Positions 1 through 35,856 of a stretch of 35,856 bases of DNA are shown in pieces. The translations under genes and the position numbers were made by a program. Origin of the DNA: a virus. Location of the stretch: IMG/VR virus record IMGVR_UViG_3300025168_000272, positions 1 to 35,856 of that record, one strand, 5' to 3'. Numbering within the stretch: position 1 is the stretch's first letter; every line of letters starts with the position of its first letter. The notes beneath the pieces were generated by a model that did no database searches, was not told the DNA's origin, and saw only the letters and a program-made list of their open reading frames with translations.

Positions 1-146
1 TAAATTTTTCATTTTTAAGGGGGGGTTTTGTGGGGAGTTTTTAAGCTCCCCTAGTTATTTTTTATTTTCTATTTTCTGTTATTACTTGCTCCAGGATTAT
101 TTTTAAATCCTCTATAGGCGTCCAACTGACGAAATAGTCGTAAGTC
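1..146. repeat. Terminal direct repeat, left copy
   Basis: Bases 1-146 are repeated at 35712-35856. The copies are identical except for a G run, which is 7 long here (19-25) and 6 long at the right end (35730-35735). This shows that the contig closes into a circle of about 35,711 bp. The repeat covers the first codons of the gene starting at 35723, its leader, and the 3' part of the gene at 62-295. It may be an assembly overlap of a circular or circularly permuted molecule, or a true short terminal repeat. Sequence alone does not separate these. Confidence 0.93.
32..51 (-). other. Hairpin between two small genes (possible terminator or leader element)
   Basis: GGGGAG (32-37) and CTCCCC (46-51) form a perfect 6-bp stem with an 8-base loop. 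On the minus strand it lies between the stop of the 77-aa gene (62) and the start of the 87-aa gene (35721-35723 across the junction; duplicate copy 35742-35761). The minus-strand 3' flank is C-rich rather than a T tract, so it is a poor intrinsic terminator in the sense direction. It may be an mRNA-processing or leader hairpin. Confidence 0.5.
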
Positions 147-295
147 ATTATTGACCTAGCTTCTCCAATATACATCTTATATAGGTTGTCTTTTTGTACT
201 TCCTTAGATGCGTTATCTAGCTCTTCAGATAGTTTATTTATTAGATAACTTCTTTCTGTTTGTTGCTCCTGCGTTTCGTTGTTTACGTTTAACAT
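62..295 (-). CDS. Small hypothetical protein, first gene of the junction-crossing operon
   Basis: 77 aa, acidic and mostly helical in appearance, with no recognised domain. It follows directly from the best-spaced promoter in its region (323-354) with a leader of about 20 nt ending in an A-rich AACCTAAAAAAA tract. Downstream, across the circular junction, lie the 87-aa membrane protein and the 338-aa conserved phage protein, so it probably starts an early operon. A truncated duplicate of its 3' end is present at the right end of the window. Function unknown; the position suggests an early, host-interaction type gene, which is inference only. Confidence 0.75.
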   Translation of the reverse strand: MLNVNNETQEQQTERSYLINKLSEELDNASKEVQKDNLYKMYIGEARSIMTYDYFVSWTPIEDLKIILEQVITENRK

Positions 296-322: not shown

Positions 323-354
323 CAAATATAACGGCTTTTATTTGGACTATACAA
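323..354 (-). promoter_or_regulatory. Bacteroidota-type promoter for the 77-aa gene
   Basis: On the minus strand, TTG (352-354) is followed after 21 bases by TATATTTG (323-330). This fits the Bacteroidota consensus TTG-N17-23-TAnnTTTG. The start codon at 295 lies just downstream. The repeat arrays at 417-710 lie immediately upstream, where regulators would be expected to bind. Confidence 0.72.
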
Positions 355-416
355 ATAATTTACAAACTATTTACAATTTATTTCTAATTTATAATGATTC
401 TAAATAAGCTTTTTGT

Positions 417-490
417 CTAAAAATAAATTTAGGCAAACCTAAAAATAAATTTTAGGCGCGGCTAAAAATATATTTAGGCCAGGCTAAAAG
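417..490. repeat. Tandem 22-23 bp iteron-like repeats
   Basis: Three and a third head-to-tail units start at 417, 439, 462 and 484, each beginning CTAAAAATA and carrying TTTAGGC. Periods are 22, 23 and 22 bp, about two helical turns, so protein bound to successive units would sit on one DNA face. Each unit is also partly self-complementary (GCCTAAA against TTTTTAGC). The array sits in the gene-free region 296-750. The form fits replication iterons or cooperative operators. Confidence 0.8.
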
Positions 491-508
491 TACTATGCAT
501 GCATAGTA
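491..508. repeat. Perfect 18-bp palindrome
   Basis: TACTATGCATGCATAGTA reads identically on both strands and directly abuts the last iteron-like unit. It is long enough to be unlikely by chance in a region of this size. A dimeric DNA-binding protein site is the simplest explanation; cruciform or dimer-resolution functions are possible. Confidence 0.85.
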
Positions 509-533
509 AAAAAAAATTCAAAAAAATCTCCTA

Positions 534-710
534 ATATAAGCCCCTAACAGTTTCAGGACTATATATAAGCCGAGGACAGTTTCAACAGTAAATCAGCTTC
601 AGGAAATTGTTTGGGAAGAAAAAAATTTTTTTTATTTTTTTATATAAGCGGGAGACAGTTTCAACAGTGTTTTGTTTTTTTATATATAAGGGTAAGACAG
701 TTTCAGGGCT
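534..710. repeat. Four dispersed direct repeats, TATATAAG-N6-9-CAGTTTCA
   Basis: Copies lie at about 534-560, 561-589, 641-668 and 682-710. Each has an AT-rich ATATAAG block, a variable 6-8 bases, then ACAGTTTCA followed by either GGACTAT/GGGCTAT (outer copies) or ACAGT (inner copies). All face the same way. A partial extra copy (CAGCTTCAGG) lies near 593-602. Together with the iterons and palindrome they fill the gene-free interval 296-750, making it the best candidate for an origin or master regulatory region. Confidence 0.8.
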
Positions 711-750: not shown

Positions 751-954
751 TTAATCTTTAGTGTAGGTTTTGTGTGTAAGTATCTGATTTATAATTGGTT
801 GACTAACTTCACATACCTCAGCTAATTGGTCTTGTGTGTATTTTCCAGTCTTGTATAATTCTCTTATACCTTCAGCCTGCTCGTATGTAAACTTTCTTTT
901 TGCATATCCTCCACCTCTCCTGTCTTTTCTATCTTCTCTTTTAATCTTCCCCAT
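751..954 (-). CDS. Small helix-turn-helix protein
   Basis: 67 aa from the ATG at 954. A longer reading from 1008 is possible but would overlap the preceding gene by 68 nt and adds only a basic low-complexity stretch. The N-terminus is very basic (KREDRKDRRGGG). It is followed by a resolvase/Hin-type HTH: a helix around FTYEQAEGIRELY, then the recognition-helix candidate EVSQPIINQIL. It overlaps the 3' end of the Zn ribbon gene by 14 bp. It lies beside the repeat region 417-710, so it is a natural candidate to bind those repeats; that pairing is inference. Confidence 0.75.
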   Translation of the reverse strand: MGKIKREDRKDRRGGGYAKRKFTYEQAEGIRELYKTGKYTQDQLAEVCEVSQPIINQILTHKTYTKD

Positions 955-1188: not shown

Positions 1189-1236
1189 CCCCTGCCCCCT
1201 GTACCCCCTATATCCCCCTCCTCTATAGCTTACCCC
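1189..1236 (-). other. Guanine-run tract with G-quadruplex potential
   Basis: The minus (coding) strand carries runs GGGGG (1232-1236), GGGGG (1214-1218), GGGGG (1204-1208), GGGGG (1195-1199) and GGGG (1189-1192). The last four are separated by 5, 4 and 2 bases. It begins in the last codons of the VRR-NUC gene and extends into its 3' untranslated region. Such a tract is exceptional in this AT-rich genome. Confidence 0.75.
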
Positions 1237-1651
1237 CATCATACTGTTTATGCATATAATTATCAATAGCTTCTTTACATTCATCAAACCCTTTACATAC
1301 CTTAGCTGTATATCCAACTTCGTTTAGGTATTCAATCCATTCGTGTTGATGTTTTGAAGCGTAGGACTTTCTATCTTTCTTTATTTCTAAAAAAAGACCA
1401 CATGATTCTCTGGTAGGGTAGCAGATTTGGAGGTCGGGGAAACCTTTTATATAGCCGCTAGCTTTCGCTTTTACAGCTTGAGTATAAGATGTTCTTATCC
1501 CTCCTAAACTCGCACAGAATTTAGCTAAGGGATATTGTAGTTGTAGGTATTTAACTACTGACTTTTGGAGCTCGTACTCGCTTTGACTTTTTGATAATCC
1601 GTTTTTTGTTGTCTCGTTTAGCTTTTGGCTTATCTTCTTTTTCTTTTTCAT
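1223..1651 (-). CDS. VRR-NUC family nuclease
   Basis: 142 aa. The VRR-NUC (PD-(D/E)XK superfamily) core is visible: GFPDLQI with the catalytic Asp near residue 73, then LFLEIKK with the Glu/Lys pair near residues 89-91, followed by the usual helix with HQHEWIEYLNEVGY. Stand-alone VRR-NUC proteins are common in phages and are thought to be structure-specific DNA nucleases. The N-terminus is lysine-rich. It overlaps the upstream membrane-protein gene by 101 bp. Its 3' end runs into a G-run tract. Confidence 0.88.
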   Translation of the reverse strand: MKKKKKISQKLNETTKNGLSKSQSEYELQKSVVKYLQLQYPLAKFCASLGGIRTSYTQAVKAKASGYIKGFPDLQICYPTRESCGLFLEIKKDRKSYASKHQHEWIEYLNEVGYTAKVCKGFDECKEAIDNYMHKQYDGGKL

Positions 1652-4045: not shown

Positions 4046-4302
4046 TTTATTTGGTCTTTTCTTATTATTAATTTATCAGTAAATTTTTTATCCTCATCTT
4101 CTAATACTAACATATTTTTATCTCCAACACTCATAATGATATTATCTCCAACCACCAATCTAATCTCATATCTTTCAAAATATCTGCCGTTTTCTGGATA
4201 AACTCTATATTTATCTCCATCTAAAGACATAACATAAGCGTCTAAAGATTTATCTGTAAGCTGATTTAATTCCATTTGAGTCATTCTACTTCTATGTTTC
4301 AT
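4042..4302 (-). CDS. Hypothetical protein
   Basis: 86 aa; the N-terminus is basic and the rest is predicted beta-rich (DKYRVYP, RYEIRLVVGDNIIMSV). The start shares a base with the stop of the loader-like gene. No domain recognised. Confidence 0.65.
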   Translation of the reverse strand: MKHRSRMTQMELNQLTDKSLDAYVMSLDGDKYRVYPENGRYFERYEIRLVVGDNIIMSVGDKNMLVLEDEDKKFTDKLIIRKDQIK

Positions 4303-4952
4303 TAACTATTGTTTACTATATCTCTAGCTTTCTGCCAAGAATCTATTTGGTTTTCTACTTTACTTGATTTATTAGAGTTTGTTGAGTTCTTTTCCCAAGT
4401 CCTTAAAGAAGCCTTCCAATCTTTCATAGAGTTCTTTCCAACCTTCCATCCGTTACTTTCGTAGAAGTCTATGAATATTTCAGGGTTTATATTATTCCCT
4501 CTCTCTAAACAATATTCTTTAACCTCGTCTATTGTAGGTTTTTTAAATCTTTTAAACTTTACAGGATTACTTATCTCTCCCTCAAAACCAGCAACATCAA
4601 CAGGGCTTATACCCTCTACATTATATACATCATACTTGTCTAACAATTTAATTACTGATTTATGAGCGTTAACATTTTCATTAAGTTGTCCATATTGAAA
4701 ATCTATAAACTTAGGTATAAACCATTTATTGCCATTATCAAATATCTTTATCTGCTCTCCTAATACTCGTGAAGCTTCTTTTTCGTTTATCTTACTTCCT
4801 ATTCTTATTGAAGCAACCTCAAAGTCTGTGTCCCATATACCAGCGTGGTTACAATCGTCTAATATATATAACCACAGTAATTTATATTTTGAAGGTAGGT
4901 TTCTTATAAATCCTTTTTTCCATTTATCTGTATCTGTAAATCTTTTAGGCAT
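4302..4952 (-). CDS. Replisome organiser / helicase-loader-like replication protein
   Basis: 216 aa. The N-terminal half begins MPKRFTDTDKW-KGFIRNLPSKYKLLW, typical of phage replication proteins with a winged helix that start by binding the origin. The C-terminal half (about residues 140-190) has PTIDEVKEYC...INPEIFIDFYESNGWKVGKN-MKDWKA-LRTWEKN, a domain shared with phage primosomal proteins and helicase loaders. With no phage helicase or polymerase recognised, this is the best candidate for recruiting the host DnaB helicase. Confidence 0.82.
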   Translation of the reverse strand: MPKRFTDTDKWKKGFIRNLPSKYKLLWLYILDDCNHAGIWDTDFEVASIRIGSKINEKEASRVLGEQIKIFDNGNKWFIPKFIDFQYGQLNENVNAHKSVIKLLDKYDVYNVEGISPVDVAGFEGEISNPVKFKRFKKPTIDEVKEYCLERGNNINPEIFIDFYESNGWKVGKNSMKDWKASLRTWEKNSTNSNKSSKVENQIDSWQKARDIVNNS

Positions 4953-6587: not shown

Positions 6588-6848
6588 TTAGAACGGCACA
6601 TCTGTATCATCAGAAGTCTTAAATTTAGATTCTGAAGTTTCTTTTTTAGGAGCTTCATAAGTGTTCTCAAAAGCATAATGAGTAGCTCCTTTTTCTGAAG
6701 GAGTTTTTCTTTCAGCTATTGTAATTTGTACCCATCCATTTTTAGCTATCTTTTGTAATTCATCTAATTTAAGATTAGCGTTAATTAGTGTTCCGTACTG
6801 AGTATTAAATTCTTTAATACTACTAGCGATGTAATTCTTTTCTGCCAT
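6588..6848 (-). CDS. Small single-stranded-DNA-binding-like protein
   Basis: 86 aa. The body is short and predicted beta-rich (GWVQITIAERK, THYAFENTY). The C-terminus is acidic and ends DDTDVPF, closely resembling the bacterial SSB tip (DDDIPF) that docks SSB-interacting proteins. This tail plus the replication/recombination neighbourhood supports a compact SSB. The 26-bp overlap with the upstream DnaA-like gene suggests coupled synthesis. Confidence 0.7.
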   Translation of the reverse strand: MAEKNYIASSIKEFNTQYGTLINANLKLDELQKIAKNGWVQITIAERKTPSEKGATHYAFENTYEAPKKETSESKFKTSDDTDVPF

Positions 6849-7245
6849 TTTGTAATTGTTTAATTGTTAGTAATTTATCTAATTCTTTGTTGATTAAAAT
6901 TATTTTTTCTTTCATATCTTCAACCTGTTCTTCAACAGAATCTTTCATTAAATCTAATTGAAAACATATATCTTTGTATGGTAATATAGTTAGTTTAGGA
7001 TAAGGAACAGTGTAGTCGTCAAATGTTCTACACGCGTGTAACACAGTTGCGTGATTATGAAGTGTGATTTTACCTGCTTTTTCAAAACTGTATTGAAAAT
7101 AGTTTCTCATAACATAAAAAAACAATCTTCTTGCATCTAAAATCTCTCTTTTTCTTACCTTGCTTCTAATTTGTTGCTCACTTATACCCATTTCCTTATG
7201 TATATAGTCAAATACAAATTGTATTTTTTTTCTATCTCTTTCCAT
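6823..7245 (-). CDS. Stand-alone DnaA domain IV-like DNA-binding protein
   Basis: 140 aa. Residues about 20-75 look like DnaA domain IV: IRSKVRKREILDARRLFFYVMRNYF (the basic helix and helix-turn), then ITLHNHATVLHACRTF, which matches the DnaA signature (RDHTTVLHA). No AAA+ domain precedes it, and a charged helical tail follows. Known phage and bacterial proteins of this type can bind DnaA boxes without ATPase activity. It may recruit host initiation factors to a phage site or interfere with host DnaA. Confidence 0.85.
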   Translation of the reverse strand: MERDRKKIQFVFDYIHKEMGISEQQIRSKVRKREILDARRLFFYVMRNYFQYSFEKAGKITLHNHATVLHACRTFDDYTVPYPKLTILPYKDICFQLDLMKDSVEEQVEDMKEKIILINKELDKLLTIKQLQNGRKELHR

Positions 7246-7247
7246 AA

Positions 7248-7559
7248 TTACCTTCTGTTAGTTGGTAAAGCTTTTACCATATCATAGTCCTCCTCTCCTT
7301 CAACTACTATAGAGTGTCTGTTTGGTATATCAACTTCTATTATATCTATTACATCTCTAACATCTATATTTAGAAAGGTAGCTAATCTAGCCATGTGAAA
7401 GTATCTTAAATAAAAAGGGTTATCAATATATTTTTCTATTGTACTTCCTTTTACATTTATTATCTTGCCAAATCTTACTTTGGATATACCTCTAATACGA
7501 AGTATTGCTTCAAGTTCATTCTTAGAACTTCTTATCTTATCATAATTATTCTTTGCCAT
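7248..7559 (-). CDS. XRE-like helix-turn-helix protein
   Basis: 103 aa. Residues about 13-60 form a Cro/CI-like HTH: ELEAILRIRGISKVRFGKIINVKGSTIEKYI, followed by HMARLATFLNIDVRDVIDII. The C-terminal 35 residues are acidic. It lies 2 bp from the DnaA-like gene. It could regulate the twin early promoters or the repeat region, but no target can be assigned from sequence. Confidence 0.78.
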   Translation of the reverse strand: MAKNNYDKIRSSKNELEAILRIRGISKVRFGKIINVKGSTIEKYIDNPFYLRYFHMARLATFLNIDVRDVIDIIEVDIPNRHSIVVEGEEDYDMVKALPTNRR

Positions 7560-8824: not shown

Positions 8825-8877
8825 TATTTATCCTTATCTTTATCTTTATATTTATCCTTATCTTTATATATAAGGGT
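8825..8877. repeat. TTATCC/TTATCT hexamer array with a 20-bp conserved end
   Basis: A run of six-base units alternating TTATCC, TTATCT and TTTATA fills 8825-8870 and ends in TTATCTTTATATATAAGGGT (8858-8877). The same 20 bases recur at 33689-33708, again next to TTATCC units. The array sits about 35-85 bp upstream of promoter copy B. It could be an operator, an AT-rich unwinding element or weak DnaA-type boxes. Confidence 0.7.
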
Positions 8878-31684: not shown

Positions 31685-33136
31685 CTACGAAAAATATACA
31701 ATTTTACCAGAATTTGACCAAATTTCTCTGTTTACAGCCATTACAAGACAATCTACCATATCATCATGCTTGCCTGATGGAAATTTAACACATTGTTGTA
31801 TAAATGATTCGTTCCAATCCCCTTTTAACAAAGTTACTCGCTCAGATTCTAAACTTGCGCTTATATCTTGTACTCTAGCTACCTTATCTTTAGTTGGAGG
31901 TTTATCTTCTCTAATATTTAACCCTGTTTCTCTTTTTAATGTTTGAACTATTGACTTACCCGAAGCTTTTGGCTCTACATATATCCTGCTGCTATTTGTA
32001 TATCCATTCATCTGTACCCACTCAGGAATAAATCTAATTAAATCAGGGAATGTTTTATGAACATTTATACAATTAATAATCTGCCATTTATTATCTAAAT
32101 AAATATAAGCTAATAATGCTGATGGGTCGTTCTTTTGATTTTCAGTATATGCTGGGTCTATTATAAAATTCACATTTACTCCATTATTTTTTTTAGAATA
32201 CTCATCTATCTTAAACCAATTACCCTTAATCAATCCTGAATTTAGAGGAGTTGGAGTTTGCATTAGCTGACCAGAATACCCATAAGTACCTAAAGCTTCT
32301 TTATAATCTTGTAATATATCTCTACTAAACCTGTCTGTCCAAAATAAATCATCTTCATCATAATATTGAGTTAAAGAAGATGGTTTTACATCATCTGACA
32401 ATTCTGCGGGTATGCAAATGTGTTTATACTTCAATCTTGTGTTTATACCATTAACTAAATAACCGCTTAAGTCATTTTCATGGATTCTTTGCATTATTAT
32501 TATTCTGACCCCCGTTAGTGGATTATTTAACCTAGAGTAAAATGTTGTTCGGTACCACTCGTTCGCATTTTCCCTTTCTACTTCAGAAGCAGCGTTTTTC
32601 GGAGAAACGGGGTCATCTATAATTAGGAAATCTGCTCCCTGACCTGTAATGGTACCTCCAACAGATGTAGCTCTTCTCATTCCCATATAGTTATTCTCGT
32701 ATCTAGCTTTTAAGTTCTGGTCTTTCTTTATATGGAATATTTCTCCCCATCTTTCTTTATACCAATCACTTTGAATAACATCTCTTGATTTAGTTGCGTG
32801 TTCTATAGATAGGTCTGCAGAATAAGAAGCTGTAATAAATCTAAGCTTAGGGTCTCTAATCCAACACCAAACAGGAAACAGTACCGTAGTAATTAAAGAT
32901 TTAGTTGAACGGAAAGGTACATTGATAATAATATCTTTCTTTTTTGGTTTTCCTTCAATAATTCTTTCTGCTTCCTCTTGTAATAAATTGCATAGATATT
33001 TATGATGCCAATTTGTTGATAGTGGTACAGATGGTTCTACAATATGCCAAGACATCTTAAAAAACTCATAAAATGACATCTCACATAACTTTTGCTCAAT
33101 AGCAAGTTTTATAGGGTCGTTATTCGCTGTACTCAT
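31685..33136 (-). CDS. terL: Terminase large subunit
   Basis: 483 aa, full length. The ATPase has a variant Walker A, VPFRSTKS (73-80), Walker B FLIIDDP (170-176) and motif III-like IIIMQRIHENDLSG. The nuclease half shows IIDPAY (Asp327), YVEPKASGKS (Glu388) and HDDMVDCLVMA (Asp458/459 and Asp462), the three RNase H-fold metal ligands. It packages DNA through the portal. The start overlaps the small-subunit gene by 17 bp. Confidence 0.94.
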   Translation of the reverse strand: MSTANNDPIKLAIEQKLCEMSFYEFFKMSWHIVEPSVPLSTNWHHKYLCNLLQEEAERIIEGKPKKKDIIINVPFRSTKSLITTVLFPVWCWIRDPKLRFITASYSADLSIEHATKSRDVIQSDWYKERWGEIFHIKKDQNLKARYENNYMGMRRATSVGGTITGQGADFLIIDDPVSPKNAASEVERENANEWYRTTFYSRLNNPLTGVRIIIMQRIHENDLSGYLVNGINTRLKYKHICIPAELSDDVKPSSLTQYYDEDDLFWTDRFSRDILQDYKEALGTYGYSGQLMQTPTPLNSGLIKGNWFKIDEYSKKNNGVNVNFIIDPAYTENQKNDPSALLAYIYLDNKWQIINCINVHKTFPDLIRFIPEWVQMNGYTNSSRIYVEPKASGKSIVQTLKRETGLNIREDKPPTKDKVARVQDISASLESERVTLLKGDWNESFIQQCVKFPSGKHDDMVDCLVMAVNREIWSNSGKIVYFS

Positions 33137-33560
33137 CTAATCTTTTTCTCAATTCTTCAATAGATACATCTTCATTAAAATCAACCTTGATTCTTTTAGA
33201 TGTATTGTCTGTAATCTCAGATGATGAGAGTTTAGGTACTGTATAGTTCATTAATTTCGCAACAGCATTTATATATGCTTCAGGGTCTTTATCAAATAGT
33301 TTCTCTAAAGCTAATTTAATCTTTGTTGAGTGTCCCTCCAAAGCCCAAGCTAAAGCATTTCTACTCATCGCAGTTGTTTTAGCTTTTCCCCTTGTTGGTT
33401 TAATTTCCTCTATCTCTTTAGTTAATGGAGGTAAGTTTCTTGATTTTGGTTTAAGCATTTTTTCCCCATCTGCATTCTCTTTTATATTGTTCTCCATATC
33501 ATCCATATTGCTATCTAATCTTAATCTTCTTCTTAACTCCTCTTTTTCTTTATCTTTCAT
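33120..33560 (-). CDS. terS: Terminase small subunit
   Basis: 146 aa from the ATG at 33560; an upstream TTG/ATG reading to 33590 is less likely. The N-terminal third is charged and low complexity; then KAKTTAMSRNALAWALEGHSTKIKLALEKLFDKDPEAYINAVAKLMNYTVPKLSS, typical of small terminase subunits of Bacteroidota phages, and an acidic end that may contact TerL. It recognises phage DNA for packaging. The 17-bp overlap with terL confirms the assignment. Confidence 0.85.
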   Translation of the reverse strand: MKDKEKEELRRRLRLDSNMDDMENNIKENADGEKMLKPKSRNLPPLTKEIEEIKPTRGKAKTTAMSRNALAWALEGHSTKIKLALEKLFDKDPEAYINAVAKLMNYTVPKLSSSEITDNTSKRIKVDFNEDVSIEELRKRLDEYSE

Positions 33561-33669
33561 AGTATTATATTTAATATTACAAATAAACAAAATATAATTA
33601 TACCAATAACGAAATTTATAGAAATAATATAAAATTCAACTTTAAATTTTTATTTATATTATACCTAGC

Positions 33670-33708
33670 CTTATCCTTATCCATATCTTTATCTTTATAT
33701 ATAAGGGT
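33670..33708. repeat. TTATCC/TTATCT array, second copy
   Basis: CTTATCCTTATCCATATC then TTTATC units, ending in the same 20 bases (TTATCTTTATATATAAGGGT, 33689-33708) as the array at 8825-8877. It lies about 110 bp upstream of the small terminase gene. The shared end suggests a protein-binding or origin function rather than simple low complexity. Confidence 0.68.
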
Positions 33709-33794
33709 ACTATAAACTATTACCCAACCCTTCCCTAACCCTTGATATTTCCCCTTTTTTCGTAGTTATTAAATTTCATTCCCCTAACTTGTGC

Positions 33795-33816
33795 TTACAT
33801 TTGTATTACATTTGTA
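33795..33816. repeat. Tandem 11-bp palindromic element
   Basis: TTACATTTGTA occurs twice without a gap. Each unit contains TACA-TT-TGTA, with inverted arms, so two dyad sites lie exactly 11 bp (one helical turn) apart. On the plus strand each unit also contains TACATTTG, a -7 match, but no plus-strand gene follows. A regulator site is the likelier reading. Confidence 0.65.
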
Positions 33817-34129
33817 TTTCCTAGAAAACATCCTAACAATCTTTCTTAACTTACTAATTATCTGTTTAATATGGATATAAAATTGAAGTTCAAAATTTAT
33901 TCTGTATGTGTACACCCTTAAGAAAGGCGGCTTCAAAAATTGACGGAATTGCCAAAATATCCCGAATTTAAGTAAAAATATCCAACTTTTTTAACAATTT
34001 GAGAGAAAATTAAAGAAAATACAAACTTTTTTAGTTTTTTTGTCGTTTTTTTTGGAATATCCAAAGAAAAAGCGCTAGTATTTCAATAGTTTTTTTATAA
34101 ATTCTTTAACTTTCTTTCTAAATTATTTG

Positions 34130-34210
34130 TTAACTACAAAAGGCGAGAAATAAAAAAGTTATTATAACGATTGCTTTAATTGTTGCGCTCTCTGTTTGGA
34201 AGTTTGCCAT
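34130..34210 (-). CDS. Very small membrane peptide
   Basis: 26 aa from the ATG at 34210: a polar start (MANFQTESATIK) and a hydrophobic segment AIVIITFLFLAFCS. It follows the preceding gene by 22 bp in the same orientation. It is short enough that chance cannot be excluded; the composition and spacing make it plausible as a membrane peptide. Confidence 0.4.
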   Translation of the reverse strand: MANFQTESATIKAIVIITFLFLAFCS

Positions 34211-34232
34211 GTGTTTAAATTTTAGTTATTAA

Positions 34233-34416: not shown

Positions 34417-35433
34417 TTAGTTATTAATATTTAGATTATTTAATTGTTTTAAGGTACCTTCGAATCCGGGTATATCTTCTATTTCCTCTATTACAGGAGA
34501 TAATAAAAGTATAACTTTTTTTAAATCTTTTGCCAGTCTTTGAATCTCTGCAAATTTAATCTTATGGCAACCAATATATAAAGTTTTATTTTGTGCTTTT
34601 GTTATCGTGTAATATCCTATCTTTTGGCCTTTTAGATTTGCATTTATCTTCTCATCATTCCACTTCCAGAACTCTAGCGCTTTTATTGCCTTTTGTCCTT
34701 CTTCTAATGATATTTTAACATTCTGTGAAGTATGTATAAAATATCTTTCTTCATTATCTAGGTTTTGTTTATCATATTGCAAACTTAATAAATCATAATC
34801 AAGGCGTACAAAGTCGCTCTTCCCTAATCTATACATCCGTATTAATTGCTTTTGCCTTCTCTCTCTTTTGTTCTTTTGCTTTTGTTCTTCTTCTTTTGCT
34901 TCTTTCTCTAATATTGTTATATTGTCCATACTTTTAGCAATGTACAGGAACCTTTTCCAGTCTTTGGAACGTTTATCTATTTGGGCTTTTATAAAGTCGC
35001 TGTTACTCCATCTCACAAACTCTATTTTGTTGCTTTTGGCGTATCTTTGGAAATCTTGAAAATGGTTAAATATTCCTTTTATTGTCGCTATATATTCTAA
35101 TTTTCTACTTTTTGCCCTTGGTAGCTTTGACACTAATTTTTCTGTTCTTCTGAGGGCATTTTTTATAAATATATCCTCGCTATAAAACTGTTTTTTGTGT
35201 CTTGAGGCGTGCTGTATTTCGCCTATATGTTTGCTAGTTGTAACGCTATAACCTCCGTTATTTATTAGAATCGCTCCTCCGTCAAGATGTAGGGCTAGTT
35301 TATAATGGTAGCCGTAAGAATAAAGAGAAGAGCGCTCAAAAAATGCGTTCCTTGTTTGGTTTTTTGCGTGCGTTTGTGATTTGTTTGCGAATAGATGAAT
35401 AACTTCGCTAGAGCTTTGGAAGACTGTTTTCAT
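34417..35433 (-). CDS. Conserved phage protein of uncharacterised family (DUF8033-like)
   Basis: 338 aa. The N-terminal 80 residues carry a strongly patterned signature seen across many phages and metagenomic contigs: SSEVIHLFANKSQ, NAFFERSSLYSYGYHYKLA, GAILINNGGYSVTTSKHIGEIQHASRH. A helical, basic middle (KEEEQKQKNKRERRQKQ, about 185-200) follows, then IGYYTITKAQNKTLYIGCHKI near residue 275. My recollection is that this is DUF8033; the family function is unknown. The leader AACCCTTAAAAACTAAAAAA matches those of other early genes. It is the largest gene of its operon and the best early-effector candidate there. Confidence 0.75.
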   Translation of the reverse strand: MKTVFQSSSEVIHLFANKSQTHAKNQTRNAFFERSSLYSYGYHYKLALHLDGGAILINNGGYSVTTSKHIGEIQHASRHKKQFYSEDIFIKNALRRTEKLVSKLPRAKSRKLEYIATIKGIFNHFQDFQRYAKSNKIEFVRWSNSDFIKAQIDKRSKDWKRFLYIAKSMDNITILEKEAKEEEQKQKNKRERRQKQLIRMYRLGKSDFVRLDYDLLSLQYDKQNLDNEERYFIHTSQNVKISLEEGQKAIKALEFWKWNDEKINANLKGQKIGYYTITKAQNKTLYIGCHKIKFAEIQRLAKDLKKVILLLSPVIEEIEDIPGFEGTLKQLNNLNINN

Positions 35434-35459: not shown

Positions 35460-35723
35460 TTAATATGTTATATAAGAATAGATAAGTACGCAAAAGCCGA
35501 TTAAAACGGTTGCAACTGCTATTGTTTCCGATATGTTTGCTATCCTTTGCGCTTTTCTTTGTCCTGGTGTTTCAAATTTGTACTTATGTAATTTTCCTCC
35601 GTTTCTTCGCATAAATTCCTGAACTTGATTTGATGGCAAAAATAAAACGGCGTTTGTCGCTCGGTTTGTTAGTTTGTAATCTTGTAAACTTTTTAGAATT
35701 GTTTTGTTTAGTAAATTTTTCAT
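35460..35723 (-). CDS. Small protein with C-terminal membrane anchor
   Basis: 87 aa. The first 60 residues are basic (KNLLNKTILKSLQDYKL, RRNGGKLHKYKFETPGQRKAQRIAN), followed by ETIAVATVLIGFCVLIYSYITY, a C-terminal transmembrane helix. It would face the cytoplasm as a tail-anchored protein. Its first codons and leader lie inside the terminal repeat, where the C run (minus strand) is 6 or 7 bases in the two copies. Function unknown. Confidence 0.7.
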   Translation of the reverse strand: MKNLLNKTILKSLQDYKLTNRATNAVLFLPSNQVQEFMRRNGGKLHKYKFETPGQRKAQRIANISETIAVATVLIGFCVLIYSYITY

Positions 35724-35856
35724 TTTTAAGGGGGGTTTTGTGGGGAGTTTTTAAGCTCCCCTAGTTATTTTTTATTTTCTATTTTCTGTTATTACTTGCT
35801 CCAGGATTATTTTTAAATCCTCTATAGGCGTCCAACTGACGAAATAGTCGTAAGTC
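35712..35856. repeat. Terminal direct repeat, right copy
   Basis: Matches 1-146 with one G fewer in the homopolymer (6 versus 7). See the left copy. It holds the hairpin 35742-35761 and a truncated duplicate of the 77-aa gene's 3' end. Confidence 0.93.

Follow-up and report, generated by a model that had tools for sequence, protein, structure and literature searches.

A conserved direct-repeat array, phased box and promoter in a gene-free control region at an operon junction of uncultured marine phages

Short directional repeats lie near the packaging module in phage lambda (the R sites of cosB) and in phage P1 (the pac repeats), DnaA-box arrays consist of 9-mer sites in uniform orientation separated by 2-bp gaps, and operators with 7-1-7 geometry are typical of the Fur/PerR family. 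An activator or another factor that contacts RNA polymerase from one face of the DNA, as at CRP-type promoters, is expected to bind in helical phase with the promoter. The sigma-A consensus TAnnTTTG has been reported for Flavobacterium psychrophilum (PMC9723704). Little is known about how phages of marine Flavobacteria, which are major degraders of algal blooms, time their replication and late gene expression.

The window analysed here is a virus record of 35,856 bp in which all annotated genes lie on the minus strand. Its last 145-146 bp (35711-35856) repeat its first 146 bp (1-146) with one gap in a G run, and four relatives have exact end overlaps, together indicating a circular map of approximately 35.7 kb. 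A gene-free gap of 455 bp (296-750) separates the end of the replication operon, comprising a VRR-NUC nuclease gene, a small gene and a gene for a helix-turn-helix (HTH) protein, from a short set of genes leading to the terminase genes. In the direction of transcription the gap contains four direct repeats, a palindrome, a 22-bp tandem, a box and a promoter. The features of the locus are as follows.

62-295, minus strand: first gene behind the promoter, encoding 77 aa, without a hit to a family and lineage-specific
323-355, minus strand: promoter of the Bacteroidetes sigma-A type, with -33 TTTG (352-355), a 21-nt spacer and -7 TATATTTG (323-330)
388-404, minus strand: 17-bp box TTTAGAATCATTATAAA of 7-1-7 geometry, lying 57 nt before the -7 element and matching the phase that this box shows elsewhere among phages
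417-489, no strand assigned: tandem of 3.3 copies of 22-23 bp, operator-like, with CTAAA-N6/7-TTTAG inverted repeats in each unit
491-508, no strand assigned: perfect 18-bp palindrome TACTATGCATGCATAGTA, operator-like
533-705, minus strand: array of four direct repeats TGAAACTGT-N6-CTTATATA, with the 9-mers at 697-705, 655-663, 576-584 and 547-555
618-641, no strand assigned: tract of almost only A and T that separates repeats two and three
751-954, minus strand: small HTH protein of 67 aa, a putative binder of the array
1223-1651, minus strand: VRR-NUC nuclease gene, whose stop overlaps the array in some relatives

The gap is a genuine DNA control region. It marks the border between two blocks of genes and is widely conserved within a family of marine phages that are uncultured. 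The exact job of the array is most likely gene control and less likely the start of replication. The best explanation, to which we assign a probability of roughly 0.45, is a DNA-level control locus in which the array would act as an operon switch next to a promoter and operator region. A sequence-only reading of the window had placed a tandem, a palindrome and four same-facing repeats in this single gene-free region, with an HTH gene on one side and a well-formed promoter on the other, and all of these elements were recovered where it had put them, the promoter being on the minus strand and driving the gene at 62-295.

On the plus strand the array takes the form TATATAAGN6ACAGTTTCA in four same-facing copies at 533, 562, 641 and 683; because all annotated genes are on the minus strand, its functional reading is TGAAACTGT-N6-CTTATATA. 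No further match to the plus-strand form exists in the record, reading the pattern backward as a control gave zero matches, and none of 100 Markov sequences produced a cluster of four identical 9-mers, bearing out the four same-facing repeats of the earlier description. Among 43 array copies from the close clade, TGAAACTGT is essentially invariant in the copy profile. Copies follow one another at unphased pitches of 9, 11, 17, 18 or 29 bp.

Comparison with related phages, in line with a check proposed with the earlier description, found the direct repeats kept both in close relatives and family-wide. With the neighbouring HTH gene as bait, at least three copies of NNNAACTGY within 130 bp on the transcription strand were found at 65 of 67 testable loci, compared with 0 of 67 on the opposite strand and 0.4% at most in shuffles; the relatives are metagenome contigs rather than independent isolates, and counts over related sequences overstate independence. 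Close relatives keep two to five copies just behind the HTH stop despite changed surrounding sequence, and distant relatives (TerL 72-77% identical) carry three to five copies of TGAAACTGC at the same junction, mostly at a different pitch. One clade has AGTAACTGC at 11-bp pitch in place of TGAAACTGY. The two-copy pattern was matched in 29 of 38 records with a backward control of zero, and when clustered 9-mers were sought without bias in 31 genomes, most of these showed the array and few or no other clusters. Cultured phages at approximately 40% TerL identity are without the array. Several genomes (G020-G022, G031, L132, L136 and L142) possess two arrays, the second being of the CGAAACTGY type at another operon junction, and in several of these both arrays are followed by separate promoters at comparable distances (e.g., 130/141 nt in G021 and 130/135 nt in L132). 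The palindrome and the box at 388-404 are retained in the close clade and in some distant members, the palindrome lying beside the array there.

Repeats of TGAAACTGC also occur within coding sequence as ETA repeats, in a small acidic ORF and in a p1806 homologue (G048:26581, G049:29724 and G054:9387). In some relatives, the small apparent arrays that precede p10630 or lie within p1806 are such coding ETA repeats and were excluded, and a contig-wide scan for three copies of TGAAACTG returned mostly unrelated coding repeats. A Chi-like polarity was rejected because the genomes are related and dispersed TGAAACTG only mildly exceeds the expectation of a high-order Markov model, with 106 forward copies against 62 and 24 reverse copies against 17.

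The array is associated with promoters. The window's promoter has the general form TTTG-N21-TAnnTTTG, its -7 element matches the F. psychrophilum consensus, and it ends approximately 27 bp before the ATG of the gene at 62-295. A TAnnTTTG element stands just before the next ORF in 57 of 88 nonredundant noncoding arrays, compared with 18 of 236 control ORF starts, and long intergenic gaps contain such a promoter in 16 of 23 cases with an array and in 22 of 97 without one. Within 700 nt after the array, a -33/-7 promoter was found at 31 of 43 nonredundant loci (9 of 43 in the reverse-strand control), and a terminator-like hairpin precedes the array at 20 of these 43 loci; a terminator scan of the window's own gap found none. 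The distance from array to promoter is broad, covering 86-366 nt with a single case of 481 nt, and is only weakly phased (uncorrected p=0.003 for a period of 10.5 bp). These counts point to a DNA element tied to promoters. Together with the phased box, they support the regulatory-hub half of the earlier proposal of an "origin or regulatory hub", while the origin half is not established.

Helical phasing, weak for the array, is clear for the box at 388-404. The box, also written TTTAGAATnATTnTAAA and with the general form TTTAGAATnATT[CA]TAAA (L520-L597 and the window), occurs in more than 100 viral stretches, many of them apparently unrelated. Its distance to the -7 element peaks at 14-15, 35-36, 45-46 and 56-57 nt, the window's 57 nt falling within a peak, and the best period is 10.3-10.4 bp (Rayleigh p ~1e-6, n=69 after removal of similar sites at a deduplication threshold of 72% similarity chosen by the authors). 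Such phasing would fit an activator-like or RNA-polymerase-contacting factor on one DNA face. Searching the literature for a named site of Bacteroidetes corresponding to the box returned nothing usable.

The palindrome and the tandem, both described in the earlier reading, lie between the box and the array. The palindrome is the only perfect one of at least 18 bp in the window, which alone is weak evidence given an expectation of 0.27 in first-order Markov sequences. It occurs in 37 viral stretches, and phages that seem unrelated carry it ahead of TAnnTTTG promoters; in L515 and L518 it is located at the -33 region of such a promoter, and L507 has palindrome, box and promoter in the window's order within DNA that lacks window homologues. 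The tandem (22-bp period, TRF score 95) is lineage-restricted, being common to the window, its closest relative L005 and the array-bearing L637, where it lies beside a GCAGTTTCA array; a similar tandem stands alone in L499, a contig without detectable window homologues. The lower half of the gap is a genuine operator region. Because the palindrome, box and tandem sites are common to phages without detectable homology, the operator-like repeats and palindrome are probably read by host-type regulators.

The preferred control locus would work as follows. At the junction between the replication operon, which ends in the VRR-NUC gene and the small HTH gene, and the operon leading into the packaging and structural genes, the downstream half provides a TTTG/TAnnTTTG promoter served by the phased 17-bp box. 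Further up, the inverted repeats and palindrome would admit host-type regulators, and the upstream half holds the family-specific array of 9-bp sites (TGAAACTGY, or AGTAACTGC in one clade). A phage protein most likely binds the array in several copies, and the array, once bound, would probably turn the following operon on or off. An operator reading of the array is weakened by its unphased copy spacing and fixed strand orientation, both unusual for operators.

The putative binder is best sought in the HTH protein at 751-954, since it is present across the family and adjacent to the array; it carries an invariant RKDxRGGGYxxRKF arm. Its structure model is a plain three-helix HTH without a significant PDB match, and its sequence matches to flavivirus polymerase chains are due to chance. 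The HTH recognition helix is nearly identical in L454, which has TGAAACTGC in a coding array, and in L457, which has AGTAACTGC, although the outer bases of the two are TGA or AGT, suggesting that the protein may read only the AACTGY core; it may also not be the array reader. The recognition helix of the XRE protein (7248-7559), also proposed earlier as a binder, varies while the array stays unchanged.

Should the HTH protein be the reader, the TGAAACTGY array might represent a new class of phage switch, in which strand-polar 9-bp sites of variable pitch, read by an RKDxRGGGY-HTH at operon junctions, would couple the end of replication to the start of the packaging and structural operon, next to promoters carrying the same host-read phased box in different phage families. 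We regard this wider claim as unlikely as it stands.

A replication origin, in which the array would supply iterons for a phage initiator and the adjoining AT tract the unwinding element, is doubtful, although its architecture fits. Several direct repeats share one gap at the end of the replication operon, they form the sole iteron-like cluster in window-type genomes, and no iterons were found in the window's initiator gene region. The AT tract beside the array ranks high among unstable stretches in most genomes, among the least stable DNA of the genome in relatives; that of the window itself is weaker (rank 4 at 80 bp and 14 at 50 bp). However, the array is not tied to the initiator gene and its DNA-binding domain. 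The initiator-like protein (4302-4952) combines a conserved C-terminal domain with an N-terminal domain that is swapped between subgroups (HTH_36 in one), and the array is unchanged where the N-terminal domain has been replaced (G019-G024 and G031). The structure model of this protein was too poor for use (pLDDT 58). Moreover, the HTH_36-type initiator genes resemble lambda O in containing two to three repeats of TAAAGGGGGTATTAAAGAAAAC and, after them, a stretch rich in A and T (L366:7564-7657, L364:5991-6060 and others), yet the array is still present in these genomes. The occurrence of two arrays in several genomes also argues against an origin. The GC-skew check suggested earlier for an origin peak revealed only a local dip and no switch; GC/AT skew is an uninformative test here because all genes are co-oriented.

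It is quite unlikely that the repeats act as RNA, serving a small RNA or an RNA-binding protein as strand-specific decoys or binding motifs. Their orientation always follows transcription, their spacing is free and the motif has a seed-like length, but many relatives have a terminator ahead of the array and the next promoter only behind it, and an Rfam search yielded no match to a curated RNA family.

Very unlikely is a packaging-initiation site (pac/cosB-like) bound by the small terminase subunit, even though the array stands at the border preceding the packaging genes and keeps a fixed orientation relative to them in every genome. It lies approximately 3 to 11 kb from the start of the large-terminase gene with genes between and is not next to terS, several genomes have two arrays, and genome ends, as judged from metagenome contigs rather than at read level, are not fixed at the array, which at least eight near-complete contigs run through. 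Contig ends are commoner just downstream of the HTH gene and show no fixed point, so cos ends were rejected. A separate conserved noncoding gap of 600-900 bp lies directly before TerS; in the window, where the TerS gene is at 33120-33590, it spans 33561-34232 (~670 bp), its position and the blocks 33876-33946 and 33669-33741 are conserved in nearly all genomes examined, and it is a better candidate for the packaging site than the array. GATAAGG/GATAAAG hexamer repeats were observed in two intergenic regions of the window (8827-8867 and 33669-33698), each upstream of a gene start, and also before TerS in relatives. The window further encodes, at 34417-35433, a protein of 338 aa that belongs to phrog_7247, a group of unknown function; few relatives have it (88% in L093, 49% in L071/G020), and distant versions occur in phages of other hosts.

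A box array for the phage DnaA domain-IV-like protein (6823-7245), another binder proposed earlier, is extremely unlikely: PF08299 occurs in 32 of 37 records and the array is similar to those of DnaA boxes in its 9-mer sites, its 2-bp gaps and its uniform orientation, but the domain is absent from four long records (G006, G007, G008 and G010), and the TGAAACTGC array is intact in at least G006 and G010, excluding it as a general reader, while its signature residues vary as the array stays constant and the sites read TGAAACTGY or AGTAACTGC rather than TTATNCACA.

The host of these phages is probably a member of Flavobacteriia or another group of Bacteroidota, judging only from the promoter type and distant TerL relatives. 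The control locus offers named sites, a candidate regulator and a promoter that are directly testable. Since the phased box precedes TAnnTTTG promoters even in phages that seem unrelated, the input of one host regulator may be common to many phages; if true, this would give a rule, open to testing, for how phage and host genes are controlled in Bacteroidetes.

Compared with known systems, the array shares with the lambda cosB R sites and P1 pac repeats its short directional repeats near the packaging module, but it is distant from TerS, contigs run through it, and another conserved gap adjoins TerS. The cultured flavobacterial phages Muminvirus (L392:18150-18440) and phi17:1 (L394:13070-13360) have short-repeat arrays between a VirE-type replication gene and VRR-NUC/terminase genes, but their repeats differ (GGTTACCTA and GACCAGTGACCA, respectively) and include no TGAAACTG array. 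Lambda-type and plasmid iteron origins (e.g., the PLE RepA_N iterons, PMC7145576) likewise place several direct repeats by AT-rich DNA in a gap near replication genes; here, in contrast, the array is neither in nor beside the initiator gene, one subgroup has separate lambda-like repeats inside that gene, the sites are only 9 bp long at 9/11/17/18/29-bp pitch, and sometimes there are two arrays, each with a promoter. The box TTAGAATnATTCTAA has the 7-1-7 geometry of Fur/PerR operators, which is no more than a possible lead, and its sequence was matched here to no curated Bacteroidetes regulon. The lower half of the gap resembles flavobacterial sigma-A promoters (TAnnTTTG, PMC9723704) with class-I-activator-like upstream sites: the -33 and -7 elements are present and the box stands at ~10.5-bp steps from -7. 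Activator sites usually lie closer to the promoter than the array and tandem do.
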